Below, piece after piece: positions 30,406 to 49,099 of a stretch of 64,000 bases of DNA. The stretch's first letter is position 1; each line of letters starts with the position of its first letter. The translations under genes were made by a program, and so were the position numbers. The stretch is from positions 1-64,000 of the forward strand of contig JAKCPI010014217.1 in NCBI GenBank assembly GCA_023213315.1, in the 5' to 3' direction. The stretch comes from Euborellia annulipes (Eukaryota > Arthropoda > Insecta > Dermaptera > Anisolabididae). Under the pieces are notes generated by a model that was given only the letters and a program-made list of their open reading frames with translations, had not been told where the DNA came from and did not search any database.

Positions 30406-32324
30406 AATACAAAACTTAAATTGTTCTGCTGGATTTAGTATTGAGCGCTCACATATAAAAATAAATAAAGGAAGTATTTATCTAAATACAATAGATAATA
30501 TTGAGTATCAGCTCATCGAAGTTATTGATATTAATCAAGGTCTTTTTAAAAATCTGCAAACTAATGAAAATAAATTAAAGTCAATTCAAGAGTTTAGGAA
30601 TGTTATTAAAAATGATGGAGCAAATATAAGTATTGATTCTAATTTGATTAGTGATGAGGATTGGGAAAAGGCTCAATTTAAATATGAAGCAATACAACCT
30701 TTTTTATCTTTAAATAGTGATTATCTCGGAACAAGGGGGTTAGAAAAAAGAGCTATTGAATGTAATGTAAGTACTAGAACAATTCGGAATTGGATTTCTG
30801 CTTTTGAAGCAACTGGGTCAATTGTATCTTTATTGGATCAAAAAAGAGGTTGGTCAACAGGGAAAATTCGCTTAGATAATGATAGTGATCAGTTAATAAG
30901 AGAGGTGATACGGGACTATTATTTGACAAAGCAGCGCCCCTCAGTAGAAGCCACTATAAGAGAAATATATAGGCATTGTAATAAACTGAAAGTAAAGAAG
31001 CCAAGTAAGAATGCAATCCGTTTAAGAGTTAATCAAATATCTGAAAAAGAATATTTAAAAGGTAGAGGTTTTCGAGAGAAAGCGCGAAATAGATATACAC
31101 CAAAACCAGGACATTTTCCTGATGCAGACTATCCATTAAGTGTAATTCAAATAGACCATACTTCTGCTGACATAATATTAGTAGATGATAAATATAGAAA
31201 ACCTATTGGGCGACCATGGATTACTTTAGCTATAGATGTTTATAGCAGAATGATTACAGGGTTTTATATTTCGTTGGATGCACCCTCTGTGACATCTGTT
31301 GCAATGTGTTTAAGTAGAAGCATCTTAACTAAAGATAAATTGTTACATGAGTTAGGAATAACTGATGTTGAATGGCCAGTGTATGGATATCCTATCAAAA
31401 TTCATGTTGATAATGGTTCAGACTTTCGTTCTTTAAATTTAAAACAATCTTGTGCCTTACATGGGATTAATATTGAATTTAGACCCTTAGCAAGACCTGA
31501 ATTTGGAGGACATATAGAAAGGTTGATTGGTAGTTTCATGAAGAAGATCCATGAAATTCCAGGTACTACATTTTCTAATATATCTAAACGTATAGAATAT
31601 GACTCTGAAAAAAATGCAATTTTCACTTTCGATGAGTTCGAGAAATATATTGCACTTCACATCTCTAAAGTTTATCACTTGAGTGAACACACAGCTTTAA
31701 ATATGGCACCAATCCAGAAATGGAAAATTGGAATATTTGGAGATTCTATGAATGAAGGGATAGGCCTTCCAGCTTTTCCCACAGATGAACAGACTCTTAT
31801 TTTAGACTTCATGCCTTATTGGAAGCGTACAATTCAGCATACAGGTGTATGTATAGATAATCTTAAATATTATGATACCTGTTTAAATCCATATATTAAT
31901 AAAATAGATGAAAATGGGAAAGCTCAAAAATATATCTTTCGCCGTGATCCTCGAGATATTAGTAAGATCTGGTTTTTTGATCCTCTCCTTAAAAAATATT
32001 TTAAAGTCCCTTTTGCAAATCAGGCTTTACCTTGCTTAAGCATATGGGAATTTAAACAGATCTTAAAAATAGTCAGAACTCAACACCATACTGTAAATGA
32101 ACAATTGATTTATCAAGCTTGGGATGAAATGCAGTCTTTGATTGAGATTGCAGAAGTAAGCACAAAAAAGGATTCGTAGACAGGAACAACGTAAAAAAAT
32201 CCATAAAAAATCTCAAAATATATATGAGGATAACGCTACAAAAAATATTCCAATAGTTGAGTCGTTAAGTACTGAAGAAAATATTAGTAATCAAGGGTTT
32301 GGTTTTTACGAGGATATTGAATAA
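30398..32324 (+). CDS. tnsB: TnsB-like DDE transposase, C-terminal frameshift
   Basis: Retroviral-integrase-fold transposase that cuts and joins the 3' ends. After helix-turn-helix domains (RAIECNVSTRTIRNWI) come the catalytic residues D253 (QIDHTSADI), D338 (HVDNGSDFR) and E374 (GHIERLIG), a DD(35)E spacing. The open frame stops at 32179 after an A-run. The next frame continues with a charged tail ending NQGFGFYEDIE and a TAA that overlaps the tnsC ATG (TAATG). Such a tail is the expected TnsC-interacting segment. Joined length is about 642 residues. Confidence 0.92.
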
Positions 32325-33217
32325 TGTTGCAAGAATATCATCATGTGCATGAAAAATTTAGGCATATCTTATTTCGCTCGGAAAAAGAAAAACTTGCATT
32401 TTTAGAGGAGCCTCGATGGATTGGCTATTCAACAGCAAATTTAGTAATCGATAATTTACAAGGTTTAATGAATAAAGCTAAAAGACCTAGAATGCCTAAT
32501 TTATTAATTATTGGTGATTCTAATAATGGTAAAACAACTTTAATTAATCATTTTAATAAGAAGTTTGGCTCTACATATCTGAATGATAATCAAGATGCTG
32601 TTATTCCCGTAGTCACTATCCAAGCCCCTCCTTCTGCTAGTGAGAAGGATTTATATATTACTTTGATAGAGTTTTTGGGTTTACCTTATAGGTCAACGAG
32701 ACCTTCTATAGAGCTGCGATATCAAGTTTTACATGCATTCAGAGAATTACATGTGAGTATGTTAATTATTGATGAAATACATTCATTATTGACTGGAACA
32801 CCGCGACAACAACGACAAATAATGAATACTATAAAATTAATTTGTAATGAACTTCAAATTCCTATTGTGGGTGTTGGTACTAAAGATGCTGTAAGGGTAT
32901 TGCATACAGATCCCCAGCATGCAAGCCGTTTTGATGTTGTTGAAATTCCAATTTGGTCTAACAATAATGATTTTAAAAGATTATTGGGTAGCTTTGAAAA
33001 AATATTGCCTCTGAAAAAGGCTTCTAATTTACAAAATTCGGACCTTGCAACAAAGATACATCATATCAGTGAAGGCAATATCGGGAATGTTCATAGACTA
33101 TTAGTTGAATGTACAAGTGACGCGATAAAAAATGGAGAAGAAATTATTACTCTTAATAATATTAAGGATAAGTCATGGTTAAGACCGACTCAAGGAATAA
33201 GAAGAATTATCAAGTAA
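32324..33217 (+). CDS. tnsC: TnsC-like AAA+ regulator ATPase
   Basis: 297-residue AAA+ ATPase that links target selectors to the transposase. Walker A is IIGDSNNGKTTL (about residues 62-72) and Walker B is MLIIDEIHSLL. The sensor region VGVGTKDA is also present. Size and motifs match TniB/TnsC. Its ATG overlaps the tnsB stop, and its 3' end overlaps tniQ by 43 bases, so the genes form one operon. Confidence 0.92.
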   Translation: MLQEYHHVHEKFRHILFRSEKEKLAFLEEPRWIGYSTANLVIDNLQGLMNKAKRPRMPNLLIIGDSNNGKTTLINHFNKKFGSTYLNDNQDAVIPVVTIQAPPSASEKDLYITLIEFLGLPYRSTRPSIELRYQVLHAFRELHVSMLIIDEIHSLLTGTPRQQRQIMNTIKLICNELQIPIVGVGTKDAVRVLHTDPQHASRFDVVEIPIWSNNNDFKRLLGSFEKILPLKKASNLQNSDLATKIHHISEGNIGNVHRLLVECTSDAIKNGEEIITLNNIKDKSWLRPTQGIRRIIK

Positions 33218-34350
33218 GTAGACTACCTATTCAAACAGCATTTCACGAAGATGAAAGTATTAACTCATGGATGATTCGTGCGGCATTAAACCAGGGATGT
33301 TCTCCACTTATATTCACTCAATATTATTGGGGGAATCACAGGCTCTGGACATATGATTTAGATAAAGGATTTGATTATATCGATTCAGCTATAAATAAAG
33401 ATATTTCTAAACTTGCTAGTATTGATATTGAAAAAATGATTGAGTTTCATACGCTTTATAAATTCTATAAGCATATGGAATATGGTGGAGATTATTATAA
33501 AAAAAATACCTCTTGGATTGTTCCGTTAGCAAAAAGAAATCGTTTGAGTTTTTTAGGATATCAGTATTGTCCAATTTGTTTCTTAAATGAAAATTTAGAT
33601 CCATATTTAAGAGTAAATTGGCGTTTTACTTGGAATATTTTCTGTCTCAAACATAAAGTCTTATTACAGAATAGGTGTTATTCTTGTGGTGAAGTTTATC
33701 AGCCCCAACTTATAGAGATCTCAAAAAAAAATATTAATCATTGCTCAAGTTGTAATAAAAAACTAGAAGTAGATGAATCACAACAAATTTTTGATATCAA
33801 AATGAAATATCAAGCCTATGAATTCCAGTTAAAAGCTCAAAATGTTTATTTAAATGGTTTTGGAGAATTTTTAGGGCAAGAATTAAAATTTAAAGATTGG
33901 TTTCAAAATGTATTATTTTTTCTAAATATAATAAGAAAAGGATGTGAAAATCCGAATTACATGTTTGGGAAGGTACTTAATGAATTTAAAATTCCATTGG
34001 ATAAAATAAAATTACCTTTAGATCCATTGGGTATAAATTATTTACCTATAATTTCAAGATGTGAACTCTTCTCAATTCTTGAGTTGTTATTGAAAGTGAG
34101 TAGAGAGCAATGGGTCGAAACATTAATAAAATATAATGTAAAACAAAATAGTTTTTATTGGTCAAAGAATATGACAATTCCGATAGGATTTTACTCTATC
34201 TATCAATATCTTCCTAACCTGACTAAGGTACAGCCTTATTCAAGAGTCTCGAATGGAATTAAAAGTAAGAAAACTATATCAAAAGAATGGAAAGCATTAG
34301 AAAAGAAATTCAAGCGTATGGAATTTTATGAAAAGCGTAAGCCGAAATAA
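33175..34350 (+). CDS. tniQ: TniQ-family target-site adaptor
   Basis: 391 residues. The TniQ opening is RLPIQTAFHEDESINSWMIR, followed by two zinc-finger pairs: CPIC...CLKH and CYSC...CSSC, around residues 135-200. TniQ/TnsD proteins bridge target recognition and TnsC. The protein is larger than minimal CAST TniQ but shorter than Tn7 TnsD. In comM-targeting elements the site is chosen by TnsF with this protein, so TniQ here is probably an adaptor rather than the DNA reader. Confidence 0.88.
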   Translation: MVKTDSRNKKNYQVSRLPIQTAFHEDESINSWMIRAALNQGCSPLIFTQYYWGNHRLWTYDLDKGFDYIDSAINKDISKLASIDIEKMIEFHTLYKFYKHMEYGGDYYKKNTSWIVPLAKRNRLSFLGYQYCPICFLNENLDPYLRVNWRFTWNIFCLKHKVLLQNRCYSCGEVYQPQLIEISKKNINHCSSCNKKLEVDESQQIFDIKMKYQAYEFQLKAQNVYLNGFGEFLGQELKFKDWFQNVLFFLNIIRKGCENPNYMFGKVLNEFKIPLDKIKLPLDPLGINYLPIISRCELFSILELLLKVSREQWVETLIKYNVKQNSFYWSKNMTIPIGFYSIYQYLPNLTKVQPYSRVSNGIKSKKTISKEWKALEKKFKRMEFYEKRKPK

Positions 34351-35738
34351 TATTCAACAATGTGATTGGTGTAGCCAGATCCTAAAAAAGTTCATCGTCG
34401 TTATAAAGGCGAGATTTATTGCATTAATTGTTATAAAACATGGTTTATTGTGAAAAAATGTATGACTTGTGGCCTAAATGCAAGATTACATAAGAAGAAA
34501 AGCATTCAATATGTGAAAAATGTAAAAGAAAGCAACCATGTATTCGTTGCGGAAAATCGGTATTCAAGTATGGTTCAACTACAAAATATGGAAGAGTTTG
34601 TAAGAGTTGTTATCAGAACTATTTTAAAGAGAAAAAAATATGTGATATATGTTATCAATTAAATAGAAGCATTTTTAGAGATAAAGAGAATTATAATAGA
34701 GTTACTTGCCTCAGTTGCTATAGAAAGAAAAGCTATAAAACATGCCCAGAGTGTAGGAAATATAGAAAACTAATAACGACCGAAGGAGGCGAAAGATGCG
34801 AAAAGTGCGCATTGTATGAAAAGGTGAATTGTAAGAGATGTAAGAAAACTATGTCTGCTAGTTTTGGGACATATTGTTGGGACTGCTATTGGTTAAATAA
34901 AGCTGAGCATGATATGAGAATTTCTTGCTATATATTTTATTCGAATGTAATTAAAAGGCAATATTGTGATTTTATTAAATGGTTAAGTTTAGAATATAAA
35001 AGTAACATAGCTAGTATGAGAGTAAATAAATATATAAATTTTTTTATCACATGTGATAGGGTGTGGTCTATAATTCCTGACTATCAATGCCTTCTTGAAT
35101 ATTTTAAACCTTTAGGACTTCGGAAAAATTTAGTTGTAATGAAATGGCTTTATAGTACATTAGATTATGAAGTAGATGAAGACGCAAAATTAGAACTATC
35201 TGAACTAACTAGAATTAATAGTTTACTTAATAAATTCAAGGGTGAAATTCCTGTTTGTATAAATAAATATTACATCTATTTACTTGATAAGTTGAAAAGA
35301 GAGAAAATAAGAATAAAGACTGTAAGAATGGCACTGCAACCAGCAATAGATATTATGCTTAAATTTGATTTAAAAAATAATGAAATAATTAATCAAGAGC
35401 AGGTCAATATTTTTTTGGTAGAAAAATATGGGCAAAGAAATACACTCTCTGGATTCTTGTCATTTATAAACAATGATTATAAGTTAAATTTAAAATGTAT
35501 AAAAAAAGAAGATAGTGTTTTCAAGCTAAAGAGGCGCATTTATTTAGAGAAAGAATTATTTAAGCTTAGTAAAGGTACAGAATTTTTAAAGGAGGATAAA
35601 ATAAGATGGGTAAGGTTATCAATGGAGTATTTTCATAACGTAATTTATAGAAATAAAGAATATAATTATATATGTGAGAATAGTTATTTAATTGTAGAAG
35701 TGTATTCTAATAAATATACTATACCCTATCCATTTTAG
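34328..35738 (+). CDS. tnsF: TnsF-like comM target selector, frameshifted
   Basis: About 470 residues when read through two breaks (near 34378 and 34493). The first about 190 residues hold twelve CxxC motifs (CDWC, CINC, CMTC, CEKC, CIRC, CKSC, CDIC, CLSC, CPEC, CEKC, CKRC, CWDC), enough for up to six zinc ribbons. The C-terminal half is helical and resembles a tyrosine-recombinase core-binding domain (INKYYIYLLDKLKREKIRIK, then QRNTLSGFLSFI), with no catalytic R..HxxR..Y set seen. TnsF, an inactivated tyrosine recombinase that directs Tn6022-like elements to comM, is the established match. The gene is tniE in older AbaR nomenclature. It overlaps the tniQ end. Confidence 0.82.
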
Positions 35739-35770
35739 AAAGATGGCTTTAACCATCTTTCTTTTTCTTA
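35738..35770 (+). terminator. terminator of the transposition operon
   Basis: GAAAGATGG-ctttaa-CCATCTTTC followed by TTTTTCTT. The stem begins at the last base of the tnsF stop codon. Confidence 0.8.
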
Positions 35771-35788
35771 ATGGCGTAGTCGAGTGCA

Positions 35789-36462
35789 TTAATCATATTT
35801 TTGAAGTTTTAGAGATGTGAAATTATTAAATACTGAAGTTATTTGAAATAATACTACAATAAATATCAAAGCATAAAAAAGTAAAACTGAAAGTTTGGAT
35901 GTGTTTTTAAAAAATTTTGTACGTGAATATTACTTAATTGAGTTTGGATAAGTATAAAAGTTGCTAAAATTGTTGGGAAAATTCCTATTTTATCAATGGT
36001 GCCAGTTATAATAGAAGTTCTTCTATCAAAATGTTCTTTTTCATAAGTTATTTCTAATTTAGATAATTCTAGATCATCTAAATTAAATTTTAATAATTTT
36101 GGTAAAAAACTTAATTTTTGATCGAGTGTTTGTCTCTGTATTGTTTAATAATTGAGATTCAGGTTCTTTAATAAAAGAATGTAGATTTTTGCGTGATTGA
36201 TAAATATCAACTAAAGTACTAATTAATAAAGAAATTTCTGAAACAAATATAAATATAAAAGCAAGTACAATTAGATCTTGATTTTTAAAAAATGCACCTG
36301 AAATTATTAAAACTAATGAAAAAACGAAGGAAATAGTGCTGATACCAATAAAACCATAATATAATTGCTTATCTCTTTTATGTATTCTTTTTCTTAAATT
36401 GATTGATATTTTTCAATTTCTAGTAAGATTAATTTAATTTTTTTTTGATCTGAATTTAACAT
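35789..36462 (-). CDS. multi-pass membrane protein, unknown, frameshifted
   Basis: Found by reading through three A/T-run frameshifts; no single frame is long. The start is ATG 36462 with AGGAGATGA before it, and the TAA is at 35791-35789. The path gives about 225 residues: an N-terminal helix (IKLILLEIEKY), two membrane helices (GISTISFVFSLVLIISG and LIVLAFIFIFVSEISLLIS), a cytosolic middle part (KLSFLPKLLKFNLDDLELSK), then two more helices (GIFPTILATFILIQ and VLLFYALIFIVVLFQI). It lies 113 bases downstream of the GAP1 gene on the same strand, with a possible own promoter between. It could be the membrane component or an independent gene. No family recognised; a SLATT-like role is only a guess. 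Confidence 0.55.
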
Positions 36463-36574
36463 TTCATCTCCTAATTTTGTAAACTATATAATGATATTTA
36501 AAATTTCAAGTAAGCCATAATTAAATAATTGATAAATAGATCTTATAGCAAATAATAGATAGTTTTCATATCAG

Positions 36575-38967
36575 TTATTCTAAAATTTCAACAAGCTGTT
36601 TTACTTCTTTATTATGTGGGAATTCTTGATACAAAATGGTTGCTATATTTTTAGGATAATCTTGAGTTTTTCCATTTGAAGCAGATTTTATTGCATGTAC
36701 CCATTGATCATAAATGGTGCCACTTGTGATTAAATCGCTAGTATTTCCTCCCGCCATCAGCCATATAGTTTTCAACCTTTCAGGGAAAAGTTCTGTGCAG
36801 AGTTCTATAACTATTTCATCAATTTCTTGAGGAGAAATAATAGTTCTAGATGTAGGGAAACTTCTTGCTTCAAATAATCTCAGTTTCAATCTATCTTTTT
36901 TGGATAGTAAATTTCTAATATGAGGAATAGTATCCTTAAAAATCTTTTTCCATCTTTATAAGATGAGTAAATATCTTTAGCGATACCTTTCCAACTGTTT
37001 TCACTAATAACTTTGCCAATTAGATTTGCATGTTTTTCCCAATTACCATGACTTAATAAATATCTTGCGGTTTTCTCACTTATAGAATTCCATTGAATTA
37101 ATTGTATAATTGCATTAGGGGGAAGAGAGGATTTTTGTTGAGCAAGTTGAATAATTTTTTGACTAAGTAATGGTTCTGGTTGACTAATATTTTTAACCAG
37201 CAATAGTGTTAATATTTTCTCTGCAACATTATTTATTATTAACTCCTTTTGAGGGGAACTAATATTTGACCATATTAATGGTCTTTTTTCATAATTAAGA
37301 ACGATAGTAGATATTTCATCATCAATATAAAGTATTTGAATTATTTTCTTAAAATCCTCATAGACAGGAGTGATGCTAATAATTTTTTCTAAAATATATG
37401 TAATATAATACTTTTTTAGTTTCTTTATTCGGTAGGATTTTATTGTTTAAATTTAAACAATTTAGCCAGACTTTAACCCAAATATGATCCTCTAAATCAA
37501 TCCTGTCTAAGATTTTTCCATCTAATATAATTCTATCTGTTATATATGGTAGGAGTTCTAATTTTTTTGTTTCAATAATAGAGTAAACAATTTCTGAGTT
37601 AGGAAATTATCTACTAAAGCTTGTAAACTTGTTGAGCTATTAAAGCTTAATTGGTATTCAAGGGATTCTTCAGCATTGTATAAATATCCTACAGCTAATG
37701 CATGAACATAGGATAAATCATTTGTAATACAAAAATTCAAGAAATTTGCAGTAACATTCTCTTTTGAGAAAGTGGAGTTTCTCCATAATTTACTTTCAAA
37801 TGATTTTTTATCAATTATCATTTTTGCTATAATTTCTGAAATTATAGGATTTGATAATATTGTTAAATATTTTGAAGCTAATATATTTGTCTCATTTATA
37901 ATATGATTAAAACCTTCTAAAATTACCTTATTCCACCATTCATGTGCTTTTTTTCATTAGCTGTTCTTAGAATTTTCTCAATTTTATTTATGTTAAAATT
38001 ATTTTCTATACTTAAAATCATCCAGTTTTGAATTTCAATATTATAGCCTGGTGTTAAAAGTATATTTCCAAGAGTAAAAATTTGATCAATATCTAAGTTT
38101 TCTATATTTTTATTTATAAAATCTATACTTTTAGTAACTAGATTTATAATTAATTGATTGTTTTCTTTTTTTGAGGATAAACAAGTTCTTAATAGTTTTA
38201 TAGCATTTGATGTGTTGGGGCTTTGCTTAAACTCTATATGACTATTAATAATTTTTTCTACAATTTTTAATTCATTTAGTTTGTTGTACTCGCATATCAA
38301 TTCTTTGAAAAATAAGAAATTATCTCCTTGCTTGTTTAATAAATACTTAACAATGTTTTTTATTGCTTTTTCACTATCATTTTCAATTTTATTATATTTA
38401 TCTAACCAAGATGAATCATAATTTCCTAATATACAATATAATGTCGGATTGAGTAGAGTAGTTGTATCTTGCTCTTTGAAAACACAATGAAGAGATAAAT
38501 TCTGACGAGAATTTGGCCATAGAGTTTCCCATAAAAAACTTATAATATCTGGCCATTTTTTAAAATCACTTGTTAAACATACAATGTTTGAATCTATAAG
38601 TGTATTTAATATAGTTAAACATTCATCATGAGATAAAGAGGATTTTACGATATTCTCGCCAACTAACGTATTGATCACATTATCTATCTTTTCATGCTCA
38701 GATACTTGATTGATGGGCCAAATTGCTACTTTACTTTTCAGAACCAGATCTTGTTTGACTTAAATCTGGTTTTGTACACCAAATAGCGTATTAGCTACCA
38801 ATTGGCCCACAATTAAGAGTATAACGCCAAGTTGTGGGCTGACTTGGAGGAATATCTGTGAGACTAATTAGTTCTACAGGAAATTCAATGTCTGTTCCTG
38901 AAACTAATTTATGGCCGCGAGAAGTGTAACCAAATTCTAAATATTTGGGCCAAAGTATTGTATCCAT
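36575..38967 (-). CDS. GAP1-like GTPase-associated protein with C-terminal effector-associated domain; broken frame
   Basis: Read across about seven indels, this is one protein of about 795 residues. It begins ILWPKYLEFGYTSRGHKLV, then LTDIPPSQPTTWRYTLNCG, the pattern of the GAP1-N domain (GY..GH-L). A long helical middle of weak similarity follows, and it ends in an effector-associated domain (LKTIWLMAGGNTSDLITSGT, then FPHNKEVKQLVEIL). That domain closely resembles the C-terminus of the nucleoside-phosphorylase gene at 41880-43152. An in-frame TAA follows GPIGS at about codon 57 (38793-38791), with YAIWCTKPDLSQTRSG resuming directly after it. It may be an error or a true nonsense mutation. 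It is 34 bases after the double-GTPase-1 gene. Proposed role: scaffold linking the GTPases to the effector. Confidence 0.68.
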
Positions 38968-39001
38968 TATTATTAACCGTAAATCCAAACTATAGGTGAA
39001 G

Positions 39002-39814
39002 TTAGATCAGAATTTTTTCATGTGTATTTGGTGGAATAATCCATCCTTGATTTTCAGGTCCATGATCCACGAAAGCATTTTGTGATCTTCCATTTAAAGA
39101 TCTGCCTAGGGAAGATAGACCCCATATGGAAATTTTATCTTTTTCCCAATTCGAATTTAAGAATTGATTTAATAAAGGTAATTCTGTTTCAAAAACTTCT
39201 TTAGGTATAGTACCTGTTGAGTTGGGTATCTGATCATAACAAGATAATACAATTGCAAGTTTGGGTTTAGAAACTCTTTGGCTCTTTTTTAAATTACAAA
39301 TATGAAGAATTATTTGAAATAATTCAATCCACCAAACATTGGCATCTACAGTATCTGATTCTGGCTTTATACTATTTTTGACGATATCTCTATTTGCTAG
39401 TAAATCCTCAATGTTATGTTTGTATTTGTTTTCATCATTTAATCGGATGAATACCATCCAACCATTCGCCGTGTTTAAAGACTCAATCCATTTCTCATTT
39501 ACTGATCTGCTCTCAAAAATATGTGTTAATTGCTCACCAGCATAGTCAAACCAAGTAAGATCCACCTCTTTATCACCCTTGATGAGTAGAGGCAAGGAAA
39601 CATTTGCAAATTGTGAGGATGTTGTTCTTTGCGGATTAGTACCCATAGCTAATCTTTCCAGAGCTTCTTGAAAGATATCAAGATTGTCTGGAGTATTTCT
39701 TATAGTAATTTGTTGTTCTACTCCACGGGTTAATCTTCCATATAGTTGTGCTGAATAAACAGTTTTACCACTATTTGGCTTTCCCAATACCATAATAGAA
39801 TTAGTTTTATCCAT
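39002..39814 (-). CDS. double-GTPase-1-like P-loop GTPase
   Basis: 270 residues from the ATG at 39814 (MDKTNSIMVLGKPNSGKT). The P-loop GKPNSGKT is at about residues 11-18, followed by VYSAQLYGRL. A switch/Walker B-like DYAGEQ motif occurs in TWFDYAGEQLTHI, and AIVLSCYDQIP is in the position of the base-recognition loop. This pattern matches DO-GTPase1 of GAP1-type conflict systems. The start overlaps the end of the double-GTPase-2 gene by eight bases (ATGGATAA), indicating translational coupling. The longer frame to 39835 is not needed. No frameshift occurs in this gene. Confidence 0.72.
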   Translation of the reverse strand: MDKTNSIMVLGKPNSGKTVYSAQLYGRLTRGVEQQITIRNTPDNLDIFQEALERLAMGTNPQRTTSSQFANVSLPLLIKGDKEVDLTWFDYAGEQLTHIFESRSVNEKWIESLNTANGWMVFIRLNDENKYKHNIEDLLANRDIVKNSIKPESDTVDANVWWIELFQIILHICNLKKSQRVSKPKLAIVLSCYDQIPNSTGTIPKEVFETELPLLNQFLNSNWEKDKISIWGLSSLGRSLNGRSQNAFVDHGPENQGWIIPPNTHEKILI

Positions 39815-40762
39815 GGCTTCCTCTAAATGTTTCAAATATAGAATTACCGATAATAGGATCGATAATTTCTGAGTGTTTTACTGAAACATTTGCCATCAAT
39901 TCATCAATTATAGTAAACATTTCATTAGGTTGTGTTATTGAACAATGGTGGTTAGATGTTGTGCAGAAATTAATTGACTTAAGGTTACGAATGATTAAAT
40001 CACGAATCGTTTTAGGAACATTATTATCTGCTTCAGCTTTAGTCCAAACTAAAGCAACATGCTTTGCATACTGATAGTCTCTTAAGCGATCAAAAATACT
40101 TGAGATATCATGCCTAGTACTTCCACGAATTTTAGCGTCTTTGTGAGAAAGTTTTTCTGAATCAGAAGTTATAATAAGTAAGTCAGAATTAGTTATTACC
40201 CAATCAGCACCTTTAGCTAATTGGGGATTTGTTGCCCATTGATTGAACCATTCTCCTGGAGCATCTATAAATATTAGATCACGAATTACATCGTTTTTAT
40301 CTCGAAAAGATAAGTGTAAAAAACCAGGAGTTCTTGCATCTCCTCTTGGAGTTCGGGGAGGAAAGTCTGGAGATGATAGTGGAGATGAGAACCTAGAGTT
40401 TTTTGCTAATGCTTCCCATGATTCAAGGGTATAACTTGCCCAGAAATCACCAAAACTTAATTTTTTACCATTTAAAATCTGTAAATATAATGACAGTAAT
40501 AGTGTAGTTTTTCCTGCTTCTGCTGGTCCAACTATCCCAATAATTAAAGGCTTTCTAATATCCGATAATTTCTGAAGGCCCTTGAATCCTAGATGTATTC
40601 CACTCCAAAAACTTTATAAGAAGGTTTGGATGTATCATCAATTAATGGTTCATCAGTTCCATCAGTTTTAATGAAACATTCACAGTCAGATGCTTTGAGA
40701 TAACCCTTTTCACAACTTATACCATCTTCAATGCCACATTCTGGATTACTACATTTATCCAT
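39807..40762 (-). CDS. double-GTPase-2-like TRAFAC GTPase with zinc-ribbon N-terminus, frameshifted
   Basis: About 318 residues read across one indel near 40605 (KVF|FWSG). The N-terminus carries Cys4, Cys9, Cys17, Cys27 and Cys29 (CSNPECGIEDG, then SDCECF), likely a zinc site. The GTPase domain has P-loop GIVGPAEAGKTTLLLSLY (about residue 78), Walker B IFIDAPGEWF, and VALVWTKAEAD near the NKxD position. The composition and P-loop match DO-GTPase2. AGGA lies seven bases before the ATG. It sits eight bases after the GASH-like gene and overlaps the double-GTPase-1 gene, in one tight operon. Confidence 0.7.
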
Positions 40763-40770
40763 TTTTATTC

Positions 40771-41865
40771 CTAAAATTCATAAACTTGCTCTTGTCTATA
40801 AATAGCTTTCGCTAAATCTGGCAAAGATATTTCTTCTATTGGGACAATACATTGTTTCTTTAAATCTTCTAAATCGATATCAGTTTTAAATGCTGAAATT
40901 ATTAGGTCCCTTATATTTAAGTAATTGTGATTTTCAGAAACTTTAAGACTACTAAATATTTCTTTAGATAAAAGTTCCTCTTTACTCTCTCTAATTCTAC
41001 TAGGATCTCTATTAATGGATACTTTTTCCCGTAATTAGAATTTTCAATTTGGCTAATTGACTCAGCCAGAATATAAGTTGAACTAACAGGGGCTGGGTGT
41101 CCTTTTAGCAGCTGTAGTAAATCTACTGCCATTACCAGTGGATTAAGTAGATGATCAATTTCTCTATAACTTTTATAAAAACTTTGAGAATATTTAGCTT
41201 CATACCACCAGAGTATGTCTAGTTGTTCATTCTGGTATTTAAAAGGGCTTTCTAGTACTGTAAAGCCAGAATTGATTTGTTCATTTAGTTCTTTAAATGT
41301 ACTTGTAAAAGTTGTTGCAATTTTTTCAGCAGATATCTCATCTTCACTCAGAATGTCTTCACTATTAAAATCTTTATTTTTCAAATTTTTGAAAGTTAAT
41401 TTTTCTTTGTAAGTGCAATAAGATAGAGCATTAAGTTTTATATTCCATTCATCAATTAGTTCTTTAGTAAGAATCATATGATGGTCTTTACCTGATAAAT
41501 ATGGCCAAAGATCAATTATACTTAATACCAATTTAGATGCGTGACTTTTATCCTTTTCAGCAAGTTTTATACATGCATATAGAACCATAGCCGTAAGTAA
41601 TCTATTAGGTTTTTCATCTAGATAAATATAACTAATATTCGTCCAGTGTTTTTCTAATGTAGTATATGCGGCTTGCATTGCTAAGTTTGTTTCAAAAATG
41701 ACTCTTTAATTAAAGTATGACATCCATCAATTAATAGATTAGATTTCATATTTTTGTAAATTCTTCAGCTGCAGCATTTACCTTATTAAAGCGATCATCA
41801 CTTTCAGTAATTTGTTTATCAAAACAACCTGCTATTTTTAAAGCTTCTTGAAAAGTCATACTCAT
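40771..41865 (-). CDS. GASH-like helical GTPase-associated protein, frameshifted
   Basis: About 365 residues read across three A/T-run indels (near 41755, 41695 and 41032). The central frame (253 residues) is wholly helical: TAMVLYACIKLAEKDKSHAS, ISAEKIATTFTSTFKELNEQ, LDILWWYEAKYSQSFYKSYR, VMAVDLLQLLKGHPAP. The phrase 'LWWYEAKYS.S...Y' with a following GHPAPVSS is what I recall from the GTPase-associated system helical (GASH) family. The start is at 41865 with GGA upstream, and the stop is eight bases before the double-GTPase-2 start. Proposed role: regulatory partner of the two GTPases. Confidence 0.6.
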
Positions 41866-41879
41866 TAGTTAATTCCAAC

Positions 41880-43152
41880 TTAATTTACATATTGCTGCAG
41901 TAATTTATTGTTAGGGAAATCTATTAAAATATTTTTAATCAAATTATTAATAGTAACATTTGCCCCATTAGTGGCTTTGTGTATCAATTCAAACCACAGA
42001 TCAGAAATATTAGAGATATTTGAAATGTCTGAAGGTTTACCTCCTGATTTAACCCAAATACTTCTTATACTGTTTACATCATAATATATACTTGATAGTT
42101 CATTAATTAGACCTTTGTTAGATAAGGTGGAAACTTCAGAGGTAAGCTCATTTATCTCTTTGCTTATCTAGGATTAAATCAGAGCAATTAATTAAGAGTT
42201 TGATCAAGCATTCTGCTGCAGCTCGAGATGCAAAATGTCTATACGTATCATCTTTAAAAGTATCACCGTAATCTGAAACAGCTTTGGAAATTATGATAGG
42301 AATATTTAATATCTCACCTAAAGCAGCTAATCCACTTGCTTCCATATCTATTCCTAAAACCTTACGCATATCCCGGTCAGCTAAGTAATTGAATATATTT
42401 TCATCTTCTTTAACAGTACTACCTGTTGCCATAGGTGCAATATGGAATGAAAAATCTGGATCATTAGTTAGACCAAAAAGCGACTCTTCTTTTAATTTTG
42501 TTGCTTCTTTTAACCCTGCATCAGTTAAATGAAAACCCTGTGGCGGTAACCCAGTTACGCTTCTTAAGCGTTTAACTACTTCAGTGAAACCAGGACAATA
42601 AGTCTTAAATATTTCGTTATTAGTTGGTTGGTTACCCTCAAGTAACTGTAAAATCAACCATCTTTCTTGATAGTCTAAAGAGTATGTTGGCCTCAATTCT
42701 AACCACTTTTCTTCTTCAAGTTTAAAGCTTTGCATTCGCTGTAAAATTTTAGGATTAGGCCTAAATTGGAGTTGATCTCCTTGAAAAATCTCGACACCTT
42801 CAATAACGACAGATTTACCAGCATCATATGACCATAATCTATCAGCAAAGATAACGTCACCAAGATGAACTTTACCTCTTCTTCCTGCACAAATACCAGT
42901 CATACAGATACACTTTATTTTGTTTTTTTCTTGTTGAAGTAAAGAGGTCGTTGCAGCAATTGCTTGCTCTCGGCCCATAAAATTTTGCCAAGTAGCCATT
43001 ATAGATAGTGCCCCAGATGGACTTGCTAATGTTGTTTTGGCAATTGTCCATCCATCCACAAATTCTTCTTTCCATGAAGTTGAACCATCTAGCGTCTGTA
43101 GTAAGGCATTATATTCATCACGTAAAGCACAAATAATAAGTACGTCTGTCAT
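41880..43152 (-). CDS. nucleoside phosphorylase-like effector with C-terminal effector-associated domain, frameshifted
   Basis: N-terminal about 330 residues form a purine nucleoside phosphorylase/MTA-SAH nucleosidase fold: VLIICALRDEYNALLQ, MTGICAGRRGKVHLGD, the ribose-binding Glu in GIDMEASGLAALG, and the catalytic Asp in SKAVSDYGD. The open frame ends at 42148, but the next frame continues without pause to 41880 and gives an effector-associated domain (SIRSIWVKSGGKPSDI, LWFELIHKATNG, ILIDFPNNKLLQQYV) like that closing the GAP1 protein. PNP-type enzymes serve as nucleotide-destroying effectors in several phage-defence systems (Detocs is one). The start MTDVLIICA at 43152 is preferred to 43194. 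It is the first gene of the cassette, 14 bases ahead of the GASH-like gene. Confidence 0.72.
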
Positions 43153-43384
43153 CTTTAATAATTTTAATGTATGAAATACTAAATCATATATCAAAATTAC
43201 TTTTTCTTAAAACAATCTTTGGTTTTTTTATAAAAGGGAAATTATATTTAACTTTATGATTTATTAATAAAAATGAAAGTGTTTGTGGGGCCAAGATTTA
43301 TGTTATATGAATTCCTCGTACACCATCACTGAATTTTAATTCTATGAAATGTGACGGTCCTAGTTTATTCAAGAGGGAATCACT

Positions 43385-44089
43385 TTAAATTTCTAAAATT
43401 GTTAAGGAGCCTCCAAAAACTGCCCCAGTGTCAATGAAGAAGCAGTTCTGATGTTGAACAGGTTTTTTTACTACCGTATGGCCAAAATAGATTGCATCAA
43501 TTCCTGTAACCTTTTTATAAGTAGGGTCATATTGACTAAGGCGAACACGACCTCTATGCCATAAAGCGACTTGTATAGCTGACTGTTCACCTTCAATAAA
43601 ATAGTTATCTTTAAGAATTTCTTGTTTGAACTTTTCCCAGTCATTGATATGTATATCAGCATGGACAAATCCATAGATCTTTTGGTTATAGTGAATTTCA
43701 AGAATGATGGGTAAACTTCGACATTTTTCAACAATGATTTGTTGTTGATGAATGGGCAACTCATACAACCAAGCGCCACCATGATGAGCATGCATGTCTT
43801 TCATTTCTACATCAATTGTTGCTTCAATACACATCTGTTCATGATTGCCACGGATTGCTTTAAACCAAGGTTTATCAATAAGACTTAGGCATTCAAGATT
43901 TTCGGTACCACGATCTACTAAATCTCCAACAGAGACTAATAAGTCCTGCCGAAAGTCGAATTCTAGCTCATGCAATTTATTCATAAGTAATGTATAGCAA
44001 CCATGGAGATCACCAACTACAAAAAGGCGACCTTGTATCGAGTTCTTATACAACTCAACTAGATTATGGCCTAAAGAGCTTTTTTCCAT
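43385..44089 (-). CDS. lambda-type Ser/Thr protein phosphatase (metallophosphoesterase)
   Basis: 234 residues with the full phosphoprotein phosphatase signature: VVGDLHGC, VSVGDLVDRG, IRGNHEQM, then FVHADI and YFGHTVV histidines for the dimetal site. Size matches lambda phosphatase and E. coli PrpA/PrpB. AAGGAATAAAATA precedes the start. It lies outside the GTPase cassette (232 bases upstream) on the same strand. A role in transposon cargo is unknown; phosphatases of this type are common in phages and islands. Confidence 0.85.
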   Translation of the reverse strand: MEKSSLGHNLVELYKNSIQGRLFVVGDLHGCYTLLMNKLHELEFDFRQDLLVSVGDLVDRGTENLECLSLIDKPWFKAIRGNHEQMCIEATIDVEMKDMHAHHGGAWLYELPIHQQQIIVEKCRSLPIILEIHYNQKIYGFVHADIHINDWEKFKQEILKDNYFIEGEQSAIQVALWHRGRVRLSQYDPTYKKVTGIDAIYFGHTVVKKPVQHQNCFFIDTGAVFGGSLTILEI

Positions 44090-44161
44090 TATTTTATTCC
44101 TTAAATATATTGAGCTCAGTTACCTAATTTCATAGTAGTGATACAAGCTTAAGTTTAGATT

Positions 44162-44413
44162 TTAGCTCAAGCCAAGATTATCCAGCTGGATAAAATCAAA
44201 GTTTTCGTCAAATAAATGATGCAATTTTTTCTGACTTTTTAAGTAAGAAAGTGTAGCGAAGAAACATGATTTACATAAATGAACTTCATATTTTTCATCA
44301 TCAGGGAAGATTGAATCCCATTTTGATTTCAATACACCATAATTTGATTGAGTTGGTCTATCACAGATATCGCATTGAATATCTTCTGATGAGACAGAGT
44401 GATTAACTTCCAT
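44162..44413 (-). CDS. small CxxC protein, unknown
   Basis: 83 residues with two CxxC pairs about 30 residues apart (IQCDICDRP and HLCKSCFFA), a zinc-ribbon-like arrangement. GGAAT lies upstream of the ATG. No family recognised. It follows the lipoprotein gene closely on the same strand. Confidence 0.5.
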   Translation of the reverse strand: MEVNHSVSSEDIQCDICDRPTQSNYGVLKSKWDSIFPDDEKYEVHLCKSCFFATLSYLKSQKKLHHLFDENFDFIQLDNLGLS

Positions 44414-44437
44414 ATATTATATTCCAAAACATTATAT

Positions 44438-44883
44438 CTAACCGATAATGCTCCAATGCAATACTTTAGAAAAGGCTGATTTCCATCAAAAGTAAGAGAA
44501 CAAATTGCTTTAGAAGCAGAATTGATTCCATATCGACTGACTCGATCACTGATTTGGAAATTGTATGTTACTGCAAAAGAATTTAATGAATATGCTCTAG
44601 CATCTGTAAGTTTTTCGCTTGCCAGGGCCTCTATTTGAGCTTTTGTTTTACCTTGTGCATTTTGACACTGTGCATTTGTTAACATTCCTGATCGATTTTC
44701 TATTTTTATTTGGGAATTCTTTTCACCAATTGTTGTAGATGTAGGTCCAACTAGAATCTCATTAATATTTTTAATACTATTATTTAAAGTTGAACTTAAA
44801 TTGTGCATATTTTTTGGAATTGATTCACAGGCACTAAATGCTAGAGGTAGAGTAATACAAGCCAAGAACTTATAAGATTTCAT
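44438..44883 (-). CDS. lipoprotein of unknown function, C-terminal frameshift
   Basis: Signal peptide and lipobox (ITLPLAFSAC) start an about 148-residue protein. It contains MLTNAQCQNAQGKTKAQIEA and KAICSLTFDGNQPF. The raw frame runs on to 44329, overlapping the next gene. A lost T in the TTTT run near 44478 would instead end the protein at a TAG (44438-44440) with SKVLHWSIIG, which avoids the overlap. I prefer the shorter form. Function unknown. Confidence 0.5.
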
Positions 44884-44906
44884 AAAAGACGACCTTTAAA
44901 ATTTAT

Positions 44907-45396
44907 TTAGAACTCATTTCGTAGTTTTGGAATTTTCTCTATAGAGTATTTGCTTTGTATGCAAAAATCGTAAGATTTACTCTGCATACAAGTTGCCCAT
45001 GAATCGCTAATTGGTTTAGATAATTCTTTTACATACATGCGTTTTTTTATTTTATTGCGATAATAAGTGTGAGCATCTTCTTCTTTTAGATACATATATT
45101 CTGATTCATTTATTTGCTTCGGTCGCCCAAATGCGAGAGTTTCATTCTCCACATAACAGGATTTCGCTTGATCAGAATCACAATGAATATAGTTAACCAT
45201 ACGAAAAATTTGGTTTTTATAAGTGGTTACAGCACTATTTCCATCCTCATTTAATACAGCAAAAATTACTTTGCAGCGTTCTGACTGAGTTGGAATACCT
45301 TGATTTACTGTATAGCATTCAGCATTAGAGTCTTCTTTTAGAAAATAGCCCAGCATAAGCCATCGTTATTCCCAAAACATACAAAGCTGGAGTCAT
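44907..45396 (-). CDS. exported or membrane-anchored protein, unknown, frameshifted
   Basis: The 149-codon frame begins abruptly at MLGYFLKEDSNAECY. Just upstream in another frame, ATG 45396 gives LYVLGITMAYA, a signal-like hydrophobic stretch, so one indel near 45350 probably separates the signal from the mature protein. The mature part has at least six cysteines (AECYTV, ERCKV, HCDSDQAKSCYV, ATCMQS, FCIQ), suggesting disulfides outside the cytoplasm. It is 23 bases upstream of the lipoprotein gene and likely cotranscribed. Function unknown. Confidence 0.45.
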
Positions 45397-45493
45397 TAAT
45401 AATTTGATAAAAAATATATCTTTCTTCAAAATTTCCTCTCTTTTTTAATAAGCATCTGAACTATAAATCTTGAAAATTTGTACTTCATATAAG

Positions 45494-45985
45494 CTAAAAG
45501 GTCTGAATTAGTTCTTTCAGAACATTTAATTTTGACTGCAGGGAAAATAGATTTTCTTGCTTCTGCTGAATCAAGATTTCAATTTGAAATCGTATAGTTG
45601 GATATTCATTAAAGCATTCATGCAGGTATTCAATTTCGAGCTCACCTTGTTGTAGAACCCTATTGAGTTGGTGAACCCTTTCATAAATAGATTCAAAAGA
45701 CTTTTGCATCTCTACTGGTAAACAAATTTTTTTTAACTGATAAACGTGATATTTCGAGGTGTATTTCAGCGGAATACTATTTGTATCCACGGTAAAGTAC
45801 TCCTTTTCTAAAGTTTGTTTAAAAAAGCTATGAATTAATTCAAAATTTTCATTCTTATTCAGAGAGTTCTTTGTTCCTATAAATAACAACCATATTTCAG
45901 TAAAAGATTGATTATGGAATGTATTTCTCATAAGAAAACGTAAAAACAATCTCTGTAGAATTTGTCTTTTGGTCATATTAATCAT
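45494..45985 (-). CDS. protein of unknown function, mostly helical
   Basis: 163 residues, or 160 from the second ATG at 45976. No membrane segment. The C-terminal half is strongly helical (MQKSFESIYERVHQLNRVL, ENLFSLQSKLNVLKELIQTF). It is divergent from the XRE regulator at 46046, with a palindromic site between them. That is the layout of a regulated gene plus its regulator, but no toxin or antitoxin family is recognised. Confidence 0.45.
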   Translation of the reverse strand: MINMTKRQILQRLFLRFLMRNTFHNQSFTEIWLLFIGTKNSLNKNENFELIHSFFKQTLEKEYFTVDTNSIPLKYTSKYHVYQLKKICLPVEMQKSFESIYERVHQLNRVLQQGELEIEYLHECFNEYPTIRFQIEILIQQKQENLFSLQSKLNVLKELIQTF

Positions 45986-45996
45986 TACATTGGTCT

Positions 45997-46019
45997 AAAT
46001 ATCCTATTTTGGGATATTT
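45997..46019. promoter_or_regulatory. palindromic operator candidate (HipB-like)
   Basis: AAATATCC-tattttg-GGATATTT: eight-base perfect arms with a seven-base spacer. It lies between the divergent unknown gene (start 45985) and the XRE regulator (start 46046). It closely resembles the TATCC-N8-GGATA operator of HipB. Confidence 0.55.
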
Positions 46020-46045
46020 TTAAAAATAGTACACCATCTTTAGTC

Positions 46046-46291
46046 ATGAGCTCAATACATGACCCAAGATATATTGATCTAATTCAATGTCTAATTTCTA
46101 TACGTGAGGAAAGAAATATTACTCAGGTACAAGTTGCTGCATCTTTAAAAAAACATCAATCCTATGTAGCTAAAGTTGAAAATTTAGATCGAAGACTAGA
46201 TATCATTGAGTTGTATGATTGGTTGAAAGTACTTAATTTACAGATTTCAGAATTTATAAAAATCTCTAATATTGAAAAGAAAAATAGTTAA
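46046..46291 (+). CDS. XRE family helix-turn-helix regulator (HipB-like)
   Basis: 81 residues from MSSIHDPRYIDLIQ. The helix-turn-helix reads ISIREERNITQVQVAASLKK followed by HQSYVAKVENLDRRLDIIEL, typical of small Cro/CI-type regulators. An upstream ATG at 45962 would start inside the divergent gene and is rejected. The palindrome at 45997-46019 sits about 27 bases before the start, suggesting autoregulation. It probably controls the divergent gene at 45494-45985. Confidence 0.7.
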   Translation: MSSIHDPRYIDLIQCLISIREERNITQVQVAASLKKHQSYVAKVENLDRRLDIIELYDWLKVLNLQISEFIKISNIEKKNS

Positions 46292-46461
46292 TAATTATTC
46301 AGAACTCTTGTATATATCTTGGTTTTGTTAAATGCAAAAATTAATATCCTTTAATATCACAAAATGAATGTTAATTTGTGACTTACTTATTAGAATTATA
46401 ACTATTTTTTTAAAAATTTAATAAACTAGATGTGAAATATATTTGTAAGGATTGAAAAATT

Positions 46462-47098
46462 ATGGAGTGGATTCAGTTGATTATTTCACTCTTAGGGTTG
46501 AGTTTCGTGAGGTATTTTTGGAAATTAATTTTTTCAAAGAAATTTAGAGAAACCCTTAGACGGAATGACTTTAAGAATTCCCGTGATGAAGCGGATGAGT
46601 TTATAAAATATATTGAAGAATTACCTAAAGAAATTATTCAGTTGCAAAATGCGACTAATTATTATCTTGGAACAGATAAATTTCATTATAGCCTTATTAT
46701 TCCTAGGTTTAGAAATTGTTGGAATTTTAAGAATAATATAAAAGATCTAATCTTTTTCATCTACATTTATTGAGCAAAAGATTGAAAACAATAATGCTCA
46801 ACTTTTCTATAAATATTCTATAGAAAATTTGAAACGTATTGAAAAATATAATGTCTTATTTTTTGTAGTGATAGCATGCGTATATGTCATTGCAATTTTT
46901 TTCGAAATCGTTTTTATAGAGTGGGTGCGCTATAAATATTCATTTGATATTGATTTTTATAATTATTTGAAGGTTGTTGTACTTATGGTTGCCTTGTTTT
47001 TAATGCCAATTACAGCTTTATTTGGAAGTAAAGCAACAGTAGCATTATCATTAAAAAATATCTTTAATATAAAGGAAAAAGTGAAGATTGAAGATTAA
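46462..47098 (+). CDS. membrane protein of unknown function, frameshifted
   Basis: Two frames join at a T-run near 46752 (KDLIF then SSTFIEQKIENNNAQ), giving about 212 residues. There is one N-terminal hydrophobic helix (WIQLIISLLGLSFVRYFW), a soluble middle (SRDEADEFIKYIEELPKEII), and two C-terminal membrane helices (VLFFVVIACVYVIAIFFEIV, VVVLMVALFLMPITALF). No family recognised. It ends with a strong terminator and is convergent with the large gene at the right end. Confidence 0.5.
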
Positions 47099-47124
47099 GT
47101 TATATTTAATAGTAATTTTTATAT

Positions 47125-47166
47125 ACAGCATGGGGAAAATGAAATTTCCGCATGCTGTTTTTTTAT
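47125..47166 (+). terminator. rho-independent terminator
   Basis: Long stem ACAGCATG-GGGAAA ... TTTCC-CATGCTGT followed by TTTTTTT, 27 bases after the membrane-protein gene. Confidence 0.8.
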
Positions 47167-47236
47167 ATTGTTTGTATTTTGAGTGTATAAATAATATGGT
47201 TAATTTGCGAGATTAAAGTAATATCTAAGAATTAAT

Positions 47237-49002
47237 TTAAATAATTTTTTCAATACCATTTAGAATCCAATTATTTTTTTGTCCATCCCGATGATTGAAA
47301 AGTGCCATCTTTCCTTTAAAGCTATCCACATAGCCATATGTTATTACTCCGTTCATTATAGCTATATGAATTAAGATAGAAGAAAGCCCGCTATCATTTT
47401 GGATATTTAAAAAAGACTCTATACTTTCTTCTAATTTAATAACTATTCCTCGAGTTGCTTTCTGATTCTGTTCTGATCTATTTTTTTCTGTTGCAAAATC
47501 AATAACAATATATTCATTATTTTCCATAATAACTTTTAAGATGAGAACCTCTTTAGGATAGTCTGTAGAATTGTCTATATGACAGTTAGTCATTGACATA
47601 GTTCGAAATAAGGGACTATCTACAAAACCTTTTTGAAAGTAAACCAATGTACTATTGCACCATATCTTTTCTTAAGGTCTAAGGCATGTTCCCATAATTT
47701 TTCTAGTCGTTCATTATTAAAAGGTTTTATGTGATCTGATACATTGTTAGTTTCATAAAAACAATCAGCTAATCCGGTTTGGCCATTTCCACCTTCACCA
47801 GCTCCGACTGAATAATCTTTAGGTTCATCAGAATTTATTAATTTGAATTTCTTAGTTACTCCGCTTTCCTTGATCTCATAATTTTTATTAATAGTTCTCG
47901 TATTACCTAGAATACCTAGTTTTTCTTTAATAGTTGCTATATGTAAATTATTGATTTTCTTGGCATCATCAATCGCTACTTTTTCTAATTCTTGTTTTCG
48001 TCGTAATCTAATAGCGATTTCCTGTGAATTTTCTTCCACATTAATATCTTCTATTTTTTTCTTATAGACAGGAGGCATTAATAAAGTAATATCGCTTCCA
48101 GTTGGCTCCGATATAGCTGTAATTCCCGTACAAAGTATTGTTGACTCATTTAAATAAATTCCTGAAATTCTTAAGTCTATTTGTTGAGTGTGCCAAGGAC
48201 TGATGGTGGGATAAAAATCATAACCAGAATCAGACTTTACTAAAGCTTGTCTTGCTCCGTTAACGATATGTTTTACTTTCTCTTGGGTATATGGATCATG
48301 CTTTAAGTGATATAAAAAAACTGCATCACGAACGGTACATTTATTTGGTAGTACAACAATACTATCAGTAGAATTATTATAATGATGATCTGAAAGGTTG
48401 AGTAAGCTGCGTACCGTATTTTCATTAGTACCAGAGTATCCCCATAGATATGTGAGTAGGACTCTTTTTATTTCCGTTGAATAACCATAGTGAGTAATAA
48501 AAAATGTCAGTGGATGAATAATAATTGATTTATTGTTCCATGATATTTTTATTAATTTATTCTTGTCATAATATAATTCTCTAATAGGATATTCACTTTC
48601 TAAGAAAGGGTAATCATTTATTTTTTTATCTAAAGTCATCCTTATAAATGAGTTGATATTGTAATTTTCATTTTTAATAGAAATGTCGAAAATTTCATTC
48701 TTAAAATATTCATTTGATCTACCATTGATCCAAATACTACCAATTCTTATTTTATGTAGATAATTTATTGATACATTAATAGAGATTTGGAAGTTCGATG
48801 GTTTCTTTGTTGATATATTAATGAACAATATTTCTACAAACTTTTTGTCATTATTGTCCTCATTTGATATTTTTCTATACCATACAACCACGTATTCATT
48901 ATCTGTGAAGAGTTTATCAGAGTTTTTTTTAAAGACTTTTTCTAAACTTAAAGAGTTAAGATAAGAAATTCTTTCTACACCAAAGATGTCTACGAAGTTC
49001 AT
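47237..49002 (-). CDS. large protein at transposon right end, possibly TnsE-like, frameshifted
   Basis: Two frames join near 47640 (VHWFTFKK|GFVDSPLFRT), giving about 588 residues. The N-terminal half is beta-rich (FVEILFINISTKKP, IRIGSIWINGR). The middle has a helical block, YGYSTEIKRVLLTYLWGYSG, and a Glu/Lys-rich linker (RLRRKQELEKVAIDDAKKIN). The C-terminal part (ALDLKKRYGAIVHWFTFKKG, VLILKVIMENNEYIVIDFAT) has a layout reminiscent of the TnsE C-terminal domain. I would not call it TnsE on this evidence alone. It starts 97 bases from the right end and reads inward. It may be a second target selector or unrelated cargo. Confidence 0.4.
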
Positions 49003-49099
49003 ATAATAATTGCTTAATAATATATTTATCGAAAATATTTATAGCAGAAATTTATGAAATTTATTTATGAAATTTGAAATTTAATTAGGGAAGTCTACA

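Follow-up and report, generated by a model that had tools for sequence, protein, structure and literature searches.

What is a compact operon built around two GTPases and a nucleosidase-like enzyme doing in DNA filed under the earwig Euborellia annulipes, and what carries it? The stretch analysed here (the window; 64,000 nucleotides, contig JAKCPI010014217.1, assembly GCA_023213315.1) contains five closely packed minus-strand genes between positions 36,575 and 43,152. With moderate confidence, we read them as an immune operon of the GAP1-N1 type, centred on GTPases and mobilised by a Tn7-like transposon that targets comM; its effector would be unleashed through contact between two copies of effector-associated domain 1 (EAD1). 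The window is an Acinetobacter contig within an assembly of 903 Mb and 25,949 contigs, and its core genes also show indel-type frame breaks. In the Acinetobacter genome G034, a near relative, 39.8 kb were fetched around comM. At thresholds of 75% identity and 60% coverage, 28 of the 35 open reading frames (ORFs) of at least 120 amino acids there have counterparts in the window, with mean amino-acid identities of 96–100%; six find none, and one of 429 amino acids, matching as two pieces at 65–75%, was dropped. The DNA is presumably the chromosome of a bacterium sequenced together with something larger; the operon-bearing mobile element sits in an Acinetobacter chromosome.

The five genes encode, in order, a PNP-fold effector enzyme with an EAD1, the helical protein GASH, DO-GTPase2, DO-GTPase1 and GAP1 (Table 1; Pfam was run on the window pieces read separately, frames not joined). 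The matches to PNP_UDP_1, the effector EAD1, GASH, DO-GTPase2 and DO-GTPase1 are far beyond chance. An earlier note on this DNA had proposed a double-GTPase/GASH/GAP1 system, and that identity is upheld by Pfam on the window pieces and on intact relatives, the two GTPases matching the DO-GTPase2 and DO-GTPase1 hidden Markov models. Its pairing of a PNP enzyme with an effector-associated domain also holds: close relatives encode PNP and EAD1 in a single protein (422–470 amino acids), and in the window a break puts EAD1 in a different frame. The motifs GPAEAGKT, GKPNSGKT, DMEAS and SDYGD all occur in the translations, as does the GAP1-N1 pattern, seen as GYTSRGH, although its true form is GYxxxGH and not GY..GH as first written. 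All five genes are frame-broken, so the genes as first listed were spliced readings.

All five genes are open in Candidatus Acinetobacter avistercoris (locus L001), the closest named relative. Its ORFs of 450, 366, 318, 295 and 805 amino acids, in operon order, match PNP_UDP_1 and EAD1 (effector), GASH (1.1e-34), DO-GTPase2, DO-GTPase1 and GAP1-N1. With the GTPase1 and GAP1 starts set at conserved methionines, the genes are spaced by 17, 8, −8 and 5 bases; the inner two values agree with those first read from the window, but the outer two had been given as 14 and 34. The seven intact GAP1s that were scanned (L001, L018, P0225, P0226, L006, L013 from Celerinatantimonas, and L079) all score above the GAP1-N1 cut-off, and the broken window piece reaches 18.5 bits against a cut-off of 27 (E = 0.0026). 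The start piece of the window GAP1 is 100% identical to P0226 over 58 residues.

This gene set corresponds to a system predicted by Kaur et al. in 2020 (PMC7159879), whose sections on it describe GASH, two DO-GTPases, one of them with a zinc ribbon, a GAP1 with a C-terminal EAD1 and EAD1-bearing effectors, name a PNPase among those effectors and propose EAD1–EAD1 coupling. The paired DO-GTPases (the zinc ribbon being seen in the window as a Cys-rich N-terminus), GASH, GAP1-N1, EAD1 on both GAP1 and effector, and the PNPase effector are all shared with the window operon, and no core difference from the GAP1-N1 DO-GTPase systems as described in those sections was found. The window type adds an insert in the PNP domain, an effector clade of the Detocs type and carriage by a comM transposon, which are new here relative to the 2020 prediction. 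The passages of PMC8195603, PMC10910872 and PMC11237479 that concern this system type contain prediction or mention only.

A second EAD1, absent from the earlier note, lies at the C-terminal end of GAP1. EAD1 exceeds the cut-off in an ORF of GAP1 size (811–883 amino acids) in 14 of 19 genomes, and direct BLASTP aligns the window effector EAD1 with the C-terminus of P0226 (2.8e-8). The GAP1 C-terminus of L001 aligns with other EAD1s though unmatched by Pfam, and those of L013 and P0225 are likewise alignable. EAD1 identity is 42% between effectors, 35% between GAP1s, and 22.1% between effector and GAP1 of different operons against 24.6% within an operon. This excess was reached by 1.5e-4 of shuffles over 14 loci (L005, L010, L014, L016 and L018 gave no usable pair), and the own partner ranks first in five of the 14. 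The pattern fits co-evolution of the effector and GAP1 EAD1s as partners, without proving it.

As the reading implied, the same gene set recurs elsewhere. A scan of species genomes gave 19 loci; its query, an alignment of GTPase1 proteins from this subfamily, biases the share of PNP effectors upward. The ORF search found effector-EAD1, GASH, GTPase2, GTPase1 and GAP1 in order in 13 of these (L001, L003, L004, L006–L013, L017 and L019; GASH as two ORFs in L007 and L019), 11 with a PNP effector. The GTPase genes of L002 and L005 were missed by that search, though tblastn found GTPase1; L014 and L015 are truncated by the beginning of their contigs and L016 by the end of its own; L018 has GASH, GTPases and GAP1-N1, with no adjoining EAD1 effector seen. 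The first gene encodes PNP-EAD1 in 12 of the 19 (seven by Pfam, five by phmmer at E <1e-100), SEFIR/TIR-EAD1 in L005, a calcineurin-type phosphoesterase-EAD1 in L011 and, in L010, an ORF with a weak EAD1 and no family assigned. In L015 a PNP-EAD1 lies behind GAP1 (EAD1 at 24.0 bits against a cut-off of 24.2). EAD1 is present in 55 of 56 aligned effectors and EAD5 in one (E up to 0.1; P0096 by its listed domains). The presence of EAD1 on both proteins and the swapping of effectors in one slot support the earlier proposal that GAP1 recruits the PNP effector.

Within Acinetobacter, DO-GTPase1 exceeds the cut-off in 4 of 175 species genomes. Three of these (L021–L023) have a distant type, and that of L001 alone has the close type; it is also the only one of the Acinetobacter genomes with a full-length effector of this kind. 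In L021–L023 the GTPase2-GTPase1 operon is of this other, distant kind, and small EAD1-like proteins are encoded in its neighbourhood. In G034, comM is open and DO-GTPase1 has no match. Among 72,556 plasmid records 26 match the effector; one match, on a plasmid of Paraburkholderia sabiae (L079), covers at least 80% of it and is followed by GASH (annotation), DO-GTPase2 (8.8e-64), GTPase1 (tblastn) and GAP1-N1.

Among solved structures, the effector best matches 5'-methylthioadenosine/S-adenosylhomocysteine (MTA/SAH) nucleosidases, the similarity being strong in the domain's second half and weak in its first. It shares their PNP fold, and the MEA/MEG and SD motifs align; the one E. coli MTA/SAH nucleosidase aligned differs in having no EAD1, no insert and neither the GK nor the KDD motif of defence PNPs. 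The acidic residues E13, E271 and D294 are invariant in 56 effector sequences; in the E. coli enzyme their counterparts are the catalytic residues E12, E174 and D197. Because these three acids are invariant, the effector is likely to be an active enzyme. Kaur et al. (PMC7159879) include, where they treat several conflict systems, inactive effectors, from which window-type effectors differ in keeping the catalytic acids.

A tree was calculated for 32 PNP-superfamily proteins from 226 alignment columns. One of its clades (99.4/100) unites nine EAD1 effectors with three PNP proteins that have a receiver domain (REC-PNP) and with the L080 protein, and it lies away from the remaining PNP-family members encoded in these genomes. 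L108 joins the L015 type in a second, separate branch, and deep branches outside the named PNP clades are poorly supported. The tree samples 9 of the 12 first-gene PNP-EAD1 effectors and 18 of the 30 loci L083–L112, three spurious ORFs, six repeat EAD1 effectors and three further phosphorylases having been left out. The REC-PNP members come from PADLOC PDC-M60 three-gene operons (L078, L081 and L082; the first two genes PADLOC-checked in L078 only), an architecture that we take, by its layout, to be that of Detocs. Since the PNP domain shares a clade with the REC-PNP of these Detocs-like operons, (d)ATP is the likeliest effector substrate, as judged by kinship. L015 and L108, from one genome, represent a PNP lineage without the insert (as seen in L015), apparently recruited independently beside the GTPase system. 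At L080:4971-6536 a plasmid encodes a protein that shares the PNP core and its insert but ends in another tail; transposition genes of the Mu-C and TniB families and a gene for an integrase lie close by.

The likeness to Detocs is confined to the effector clade. Assuming the equivalence above, PDC-M60 operons use two-component-like control, with a large first protein and response regulators, whereas the window operon uses GTPases; unlike the window-type effector, the three REC-PNP compared have neither the PNP insert nor EAD1. No receiver domain was found in the effector and no response-regulator-type gene among the five of the operon. PDC-M60 was rejected as an identification of the whole system because the PNP domain alone matches.

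A housekeeping operon for nucleoside salvage under a GTPase regulator would account for the PNP fold and for the MTA/SAH nucleosidases as best PDB sequence matches. It is scarcely credible for an operon that is patchy and mobile, whose effector is fused to EAD1, exchangeable for TIR or phosphoesterase domains and separated in the tree from the remaining PNP-family members that these genomes encode.

The PNP insert, of about 60 residues, lies between two conserved stretches; it is absent from L015 and the three REC-PNP compared and present in L080. It resembles wHTH-PRTase_assc in 18 of the 56 members (E up to 0.1, best 6e-4), L001 and P0001 falling under the cut-off, and its profile gave no convincing match to solved structures. 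The conserved insert is possibly a winged helix; its assignment as a certain one was rejected, the matches being weak and no solved structure convincing. It is highly doubtful that the insert is a nucleic-acid-binding winged helix within the catalytic domain, through which the effector would check phage DNA or GAP1 before firing, in a GTP-gated ATP-nucleosidase complex that works as a two-key lock. We know of no such lock, combining GTPase state with DNA contact, among Detocs or CBASS effectors.

Sequence variability bears on which parts meet the trigger. Between the window and L001, identity is 82–84% in the GTPase domains, 82% in the PNP domain and 74% in the effector EAD1, against mostly 63–69% in GASH (81% over a 27-residue start piece) and 54–74% in GAP1; the zinc-ribbon-like stretch of GTPase2, at only 52%, is an exception among the conserved GTPase parts. 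Pairwise means for nine close GAP1s (L001, P0219–P0226) are 82% in the N1 region, 74% in the middle and 78% in the EAD1 region. Because they vary most, GASH and the GAP1 body point to themselves as the likelier sensing parts. The earlier suggestion that the GTPases sense infection is not supported, the GTPase domains being among the conserved parts and GASH and GAP1 the most variable; the observation made in that note is confirmed, and its overall interpretation is partly supported.

In the mechanism we favour, GAP1, GASH and the two GTPases would rest in a complex that is held off. A trigger, met most likely by variable parts of GAP1 or GASH, would shift the GTPase pair; the P-loop, YxGE and CxD residues are invariant across 31 GTPase1 sequences, and GTP binding or hydrolysis may drive effector release. 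The C-terminal EAD1 of GAP1 would then bind the EAD1 of the nucleosidase and cluster or activate this enzyme, which probably destroys (d)ATP, presumably in defence against phages. With one five-gene operon, one enzyme with a likely substrate and one adaptor pair, the 2020 computational prediction becomes testable. If it holds, a GTPase switch is added to the mechanisms known to release ATP-destroying effectors, which would themselves be exchangeable parts common to unrelated sensors.

The genes downstream of GAP1 bear on an alternative in which the system is the same and the PNP product, a released base or modified nucleotide, is a signal that opens a membrane pore instead of ATP being depleted. 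Directly downstream of the window GAP1 lies a broken membrane-like gene (36463-35789, minus strand), whose scanned piece reached the cut-off of no family; in L008 and L013 the genes behind GAP1 encode SLATT pores; and Kaur et al. (PMC7159879), in their treatment of related systems, propose signalling by PNPases and place SLATT beside nucleotide effectors. The alternative is nevertheless unlikely. SLATT accounts for two of 11 downstream genes scanned with Pfam, some of which may lie outside the operon, and is not found in the other nine; in L017 the downstream gene encodes an HNH endonuclease. The effector groups with the Detocs-like REC-PNP, and among Detocs effectors the best described one acts by cleaving ATP. 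In L001, whose contig is short, no ORF of membrane-protein type appeared behind GAP1, on which ground the downstream gene of the window was also rejected as a fixed sixth member.

Several observations weigh against an EAD1-coupled immune operon. Neither GAP1-M nor any other GAP1 model beyond N1 was matched by Pfam in the seven intact GAP1s scanned; the region beyond N1 is alignable among relatives. By Pfam, the GAP1-end EAD1 is under the cut-off in the window (22.1 bits against 24.2), P0226 (0.0038) and L079, and unmatched in L001, L013 and P0225. The own EAD1 partner ranks 11th or 12th of 14 in two of the 14 loci, and the within-operon effect is small and uncorrected for kinship between loci. 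The PNP protein and GTPase1 have no match in viral contigs, nor PNP in phage records, and carriage of the operon by phages was rejected for this reason. As the earlier note had supposed, no experimental study of the GAP1-N1 GTPase/PNP combination was found in the literature searched, although the combination was not new, having been predicted in 2020. The operon has about 10 frame breaks in 6.6 kb, affecting all five genes, against 6 in 28.2 kb of flanking core genes (a seventh extra piece is comM cut by the transposon, and the dropped 429-amino-acid ORF may mark one further break), a density several times higher that homopolymer counts and density fail to explain; homopolymers were rejected as its full cause.

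Real decay of the window copy, leaving it non-functional, therefore has to be reckoned with, and would account for breaks that reach every gene and exceed those of the flanks. We consider it unlikely: near-identical intact proteins exist for the three of five genes searched (effector, P0001; GTPase1, P0121; GAP1, P0226), the pattern is of the indel type, and breaks also occur in core genes elsewhere on the contig. Because the operon pieces keep 90–100% identity to these proteins, assembly error is the likelier cause of the breaks.

The operon lies within a Tn7-like transposon, as had been proposed, which is borne out by transposition genes, ends, target duplication and an empty site: the joined flanks align with G034 comM at 95%, gapless at the junction. 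The TnsF and TnsE assignments come solely from resemblance to ORFs in further elements inserted in comM; the TnsF-like gene, which seems to have the start of its protein encoded upstream in different frames, is matched in all seven comM elements compared and the TnsE-like gene in one (L065). As described in the pertinent sections of Faure et al. (2023; PMC10293859), Tn6022 was shown experimentally to target comM via TnsF, and Tn6022-type transposons resemble the window element in TnsA, TnsB, TnsC, TniQ, TnsF-like and TnsE-like genes, comM insertion and target duplication. Other comM elements differ in sequence and cargo: the nearest of the seven (L065) is 60% identical in TnsC, 36% in TniQ and 35% in TnsF, and the window cargo is the GTPase operon. 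TniQ relatives occur in 30 of the 175 Acinetobacter species genomes; among the best 20 matches, judged by eye, 14 have comM no more than 40 kb away on their own contig, two are on another contig, and for four the place of comM was not displayed. Among the Acinetobacter comM transposons L065–L071, inspection by eye, without family searches, suggests cargo for efflux, metals or arsenic in several and a possible AAA/OLD-like gene in L071. With the window operon, comM transposons of Acinetobacter gain a putative immune cargo.

Carriage on a Tn7-like element would also suit an operon that guards the transposon or its host against plasmids or competing mobile elements instead of phages, and plasmids are among the possible targets named in the relevant part of Kaur et al. 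(PMC7159879). We consider this alternative distinctly unlikely; the reports on PNP effectors akin to this one concern phage defence.

Table 1. Features of the operon and its carrier transposon in the window.
Feature	Position	Strand	Evidence
Effector PNP-fold nucleosidase domain	42148..43152	-	Pfam PNP_UDP_1 4.6e-13; PADLOC PDC-M60C 2.8e-39
Insert splitting effector PNP (~60 extra residues)	within roughly 42445-42738	-	alignment of relatives
Effector EAD1	41880..42167	-	Pfam EAD1 2.4e-9; 98% to P0001 residues 378-470
GASH helical protein, broken	40771..41868	-	Pfam GASH 8.1e-24 and 1.2e-4 (latter under cut-off), two pieces; 63-81% to L001
DO-GTPase2, broken	39807..40777	-	Pfam DO-GTPase2 2.2e-50
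Cys-rich (zinc-ribbon-like) N-terminal stretch of DO-GTPase2	40589-40777	-	Cys pattern by eye; no Pfam match
DO-GTPase1, last residues lost through frame break	39002..39835	-	Pfam DO-GTPase1 3.5e-67; 98.9% to P0121
GAP1 (N1 type), six pieces	36575..38967	-	90-100% to intact P0226 piecewise; GAP1-N1 6e-16 in P0226
C-terminal EAD1 of GAP1	~36587-36808	-	Pfam EAD1 2.2e-4, under cut-off
Tn7-like (Tn6022/TnsF-type) transposon, 19,482 bp	29618..49099		ends, target duplication, empty site
Target-site duplication ACCGC, left	29613..29617	+	sequence
Target-site duplication ACCGC, right	49100..49104	+	sequence
TnsA	29824..30405	+	Pfam TnsA N 9.5e-14, TnsA C 4.5e-5
TnsB transposase	30398..32179	+	Pfam Mu-transpos_C 1.2e-7; rve 9.4e-5 under cut-off
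TnsC/TniB ATPase	32324..33217	+	Pfam TniB 1.3e-68
TniQ	33175..34350	+	Pfam TniQ 9.8e-18
TnsF-like target selector	34812..35738	+	35% to 479-aa ORF, same place in L065; name and role after sections of PMC10293859; no Pfam match
TnsE-like gene, two pieces	47237..49002	-	30% and 26% to 603-aa ORF beside comM in L065; name inferred from sections of PMC10293859; no Pfam match over cut-off
comM 3' part, target gene	28965..29617	-	Pfam Mg_chelatase 1.2e-44, Mg_chelatase_C 8.2e-29
comM 5' part, target gene	49100..49940	-	joined-flank alignment

Two further features lie upstream of the effector. At 43385-44089 (minus strand) is a Ser/Thr-phosphatase-like gene (Metallophos 4.1e-15; PRK11439 with E = 1.1e-51 and 176 bits against a cut-off of 326); as an extra effector it was rejected, since it has Metallophos only, no EAD1, and is not found beside the L001 operon. 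At 45494-46291 lies a divergent pair, an XRE-type regulator and its partner, homologues of which (65% and 21%) also adjoin the L001 operon.

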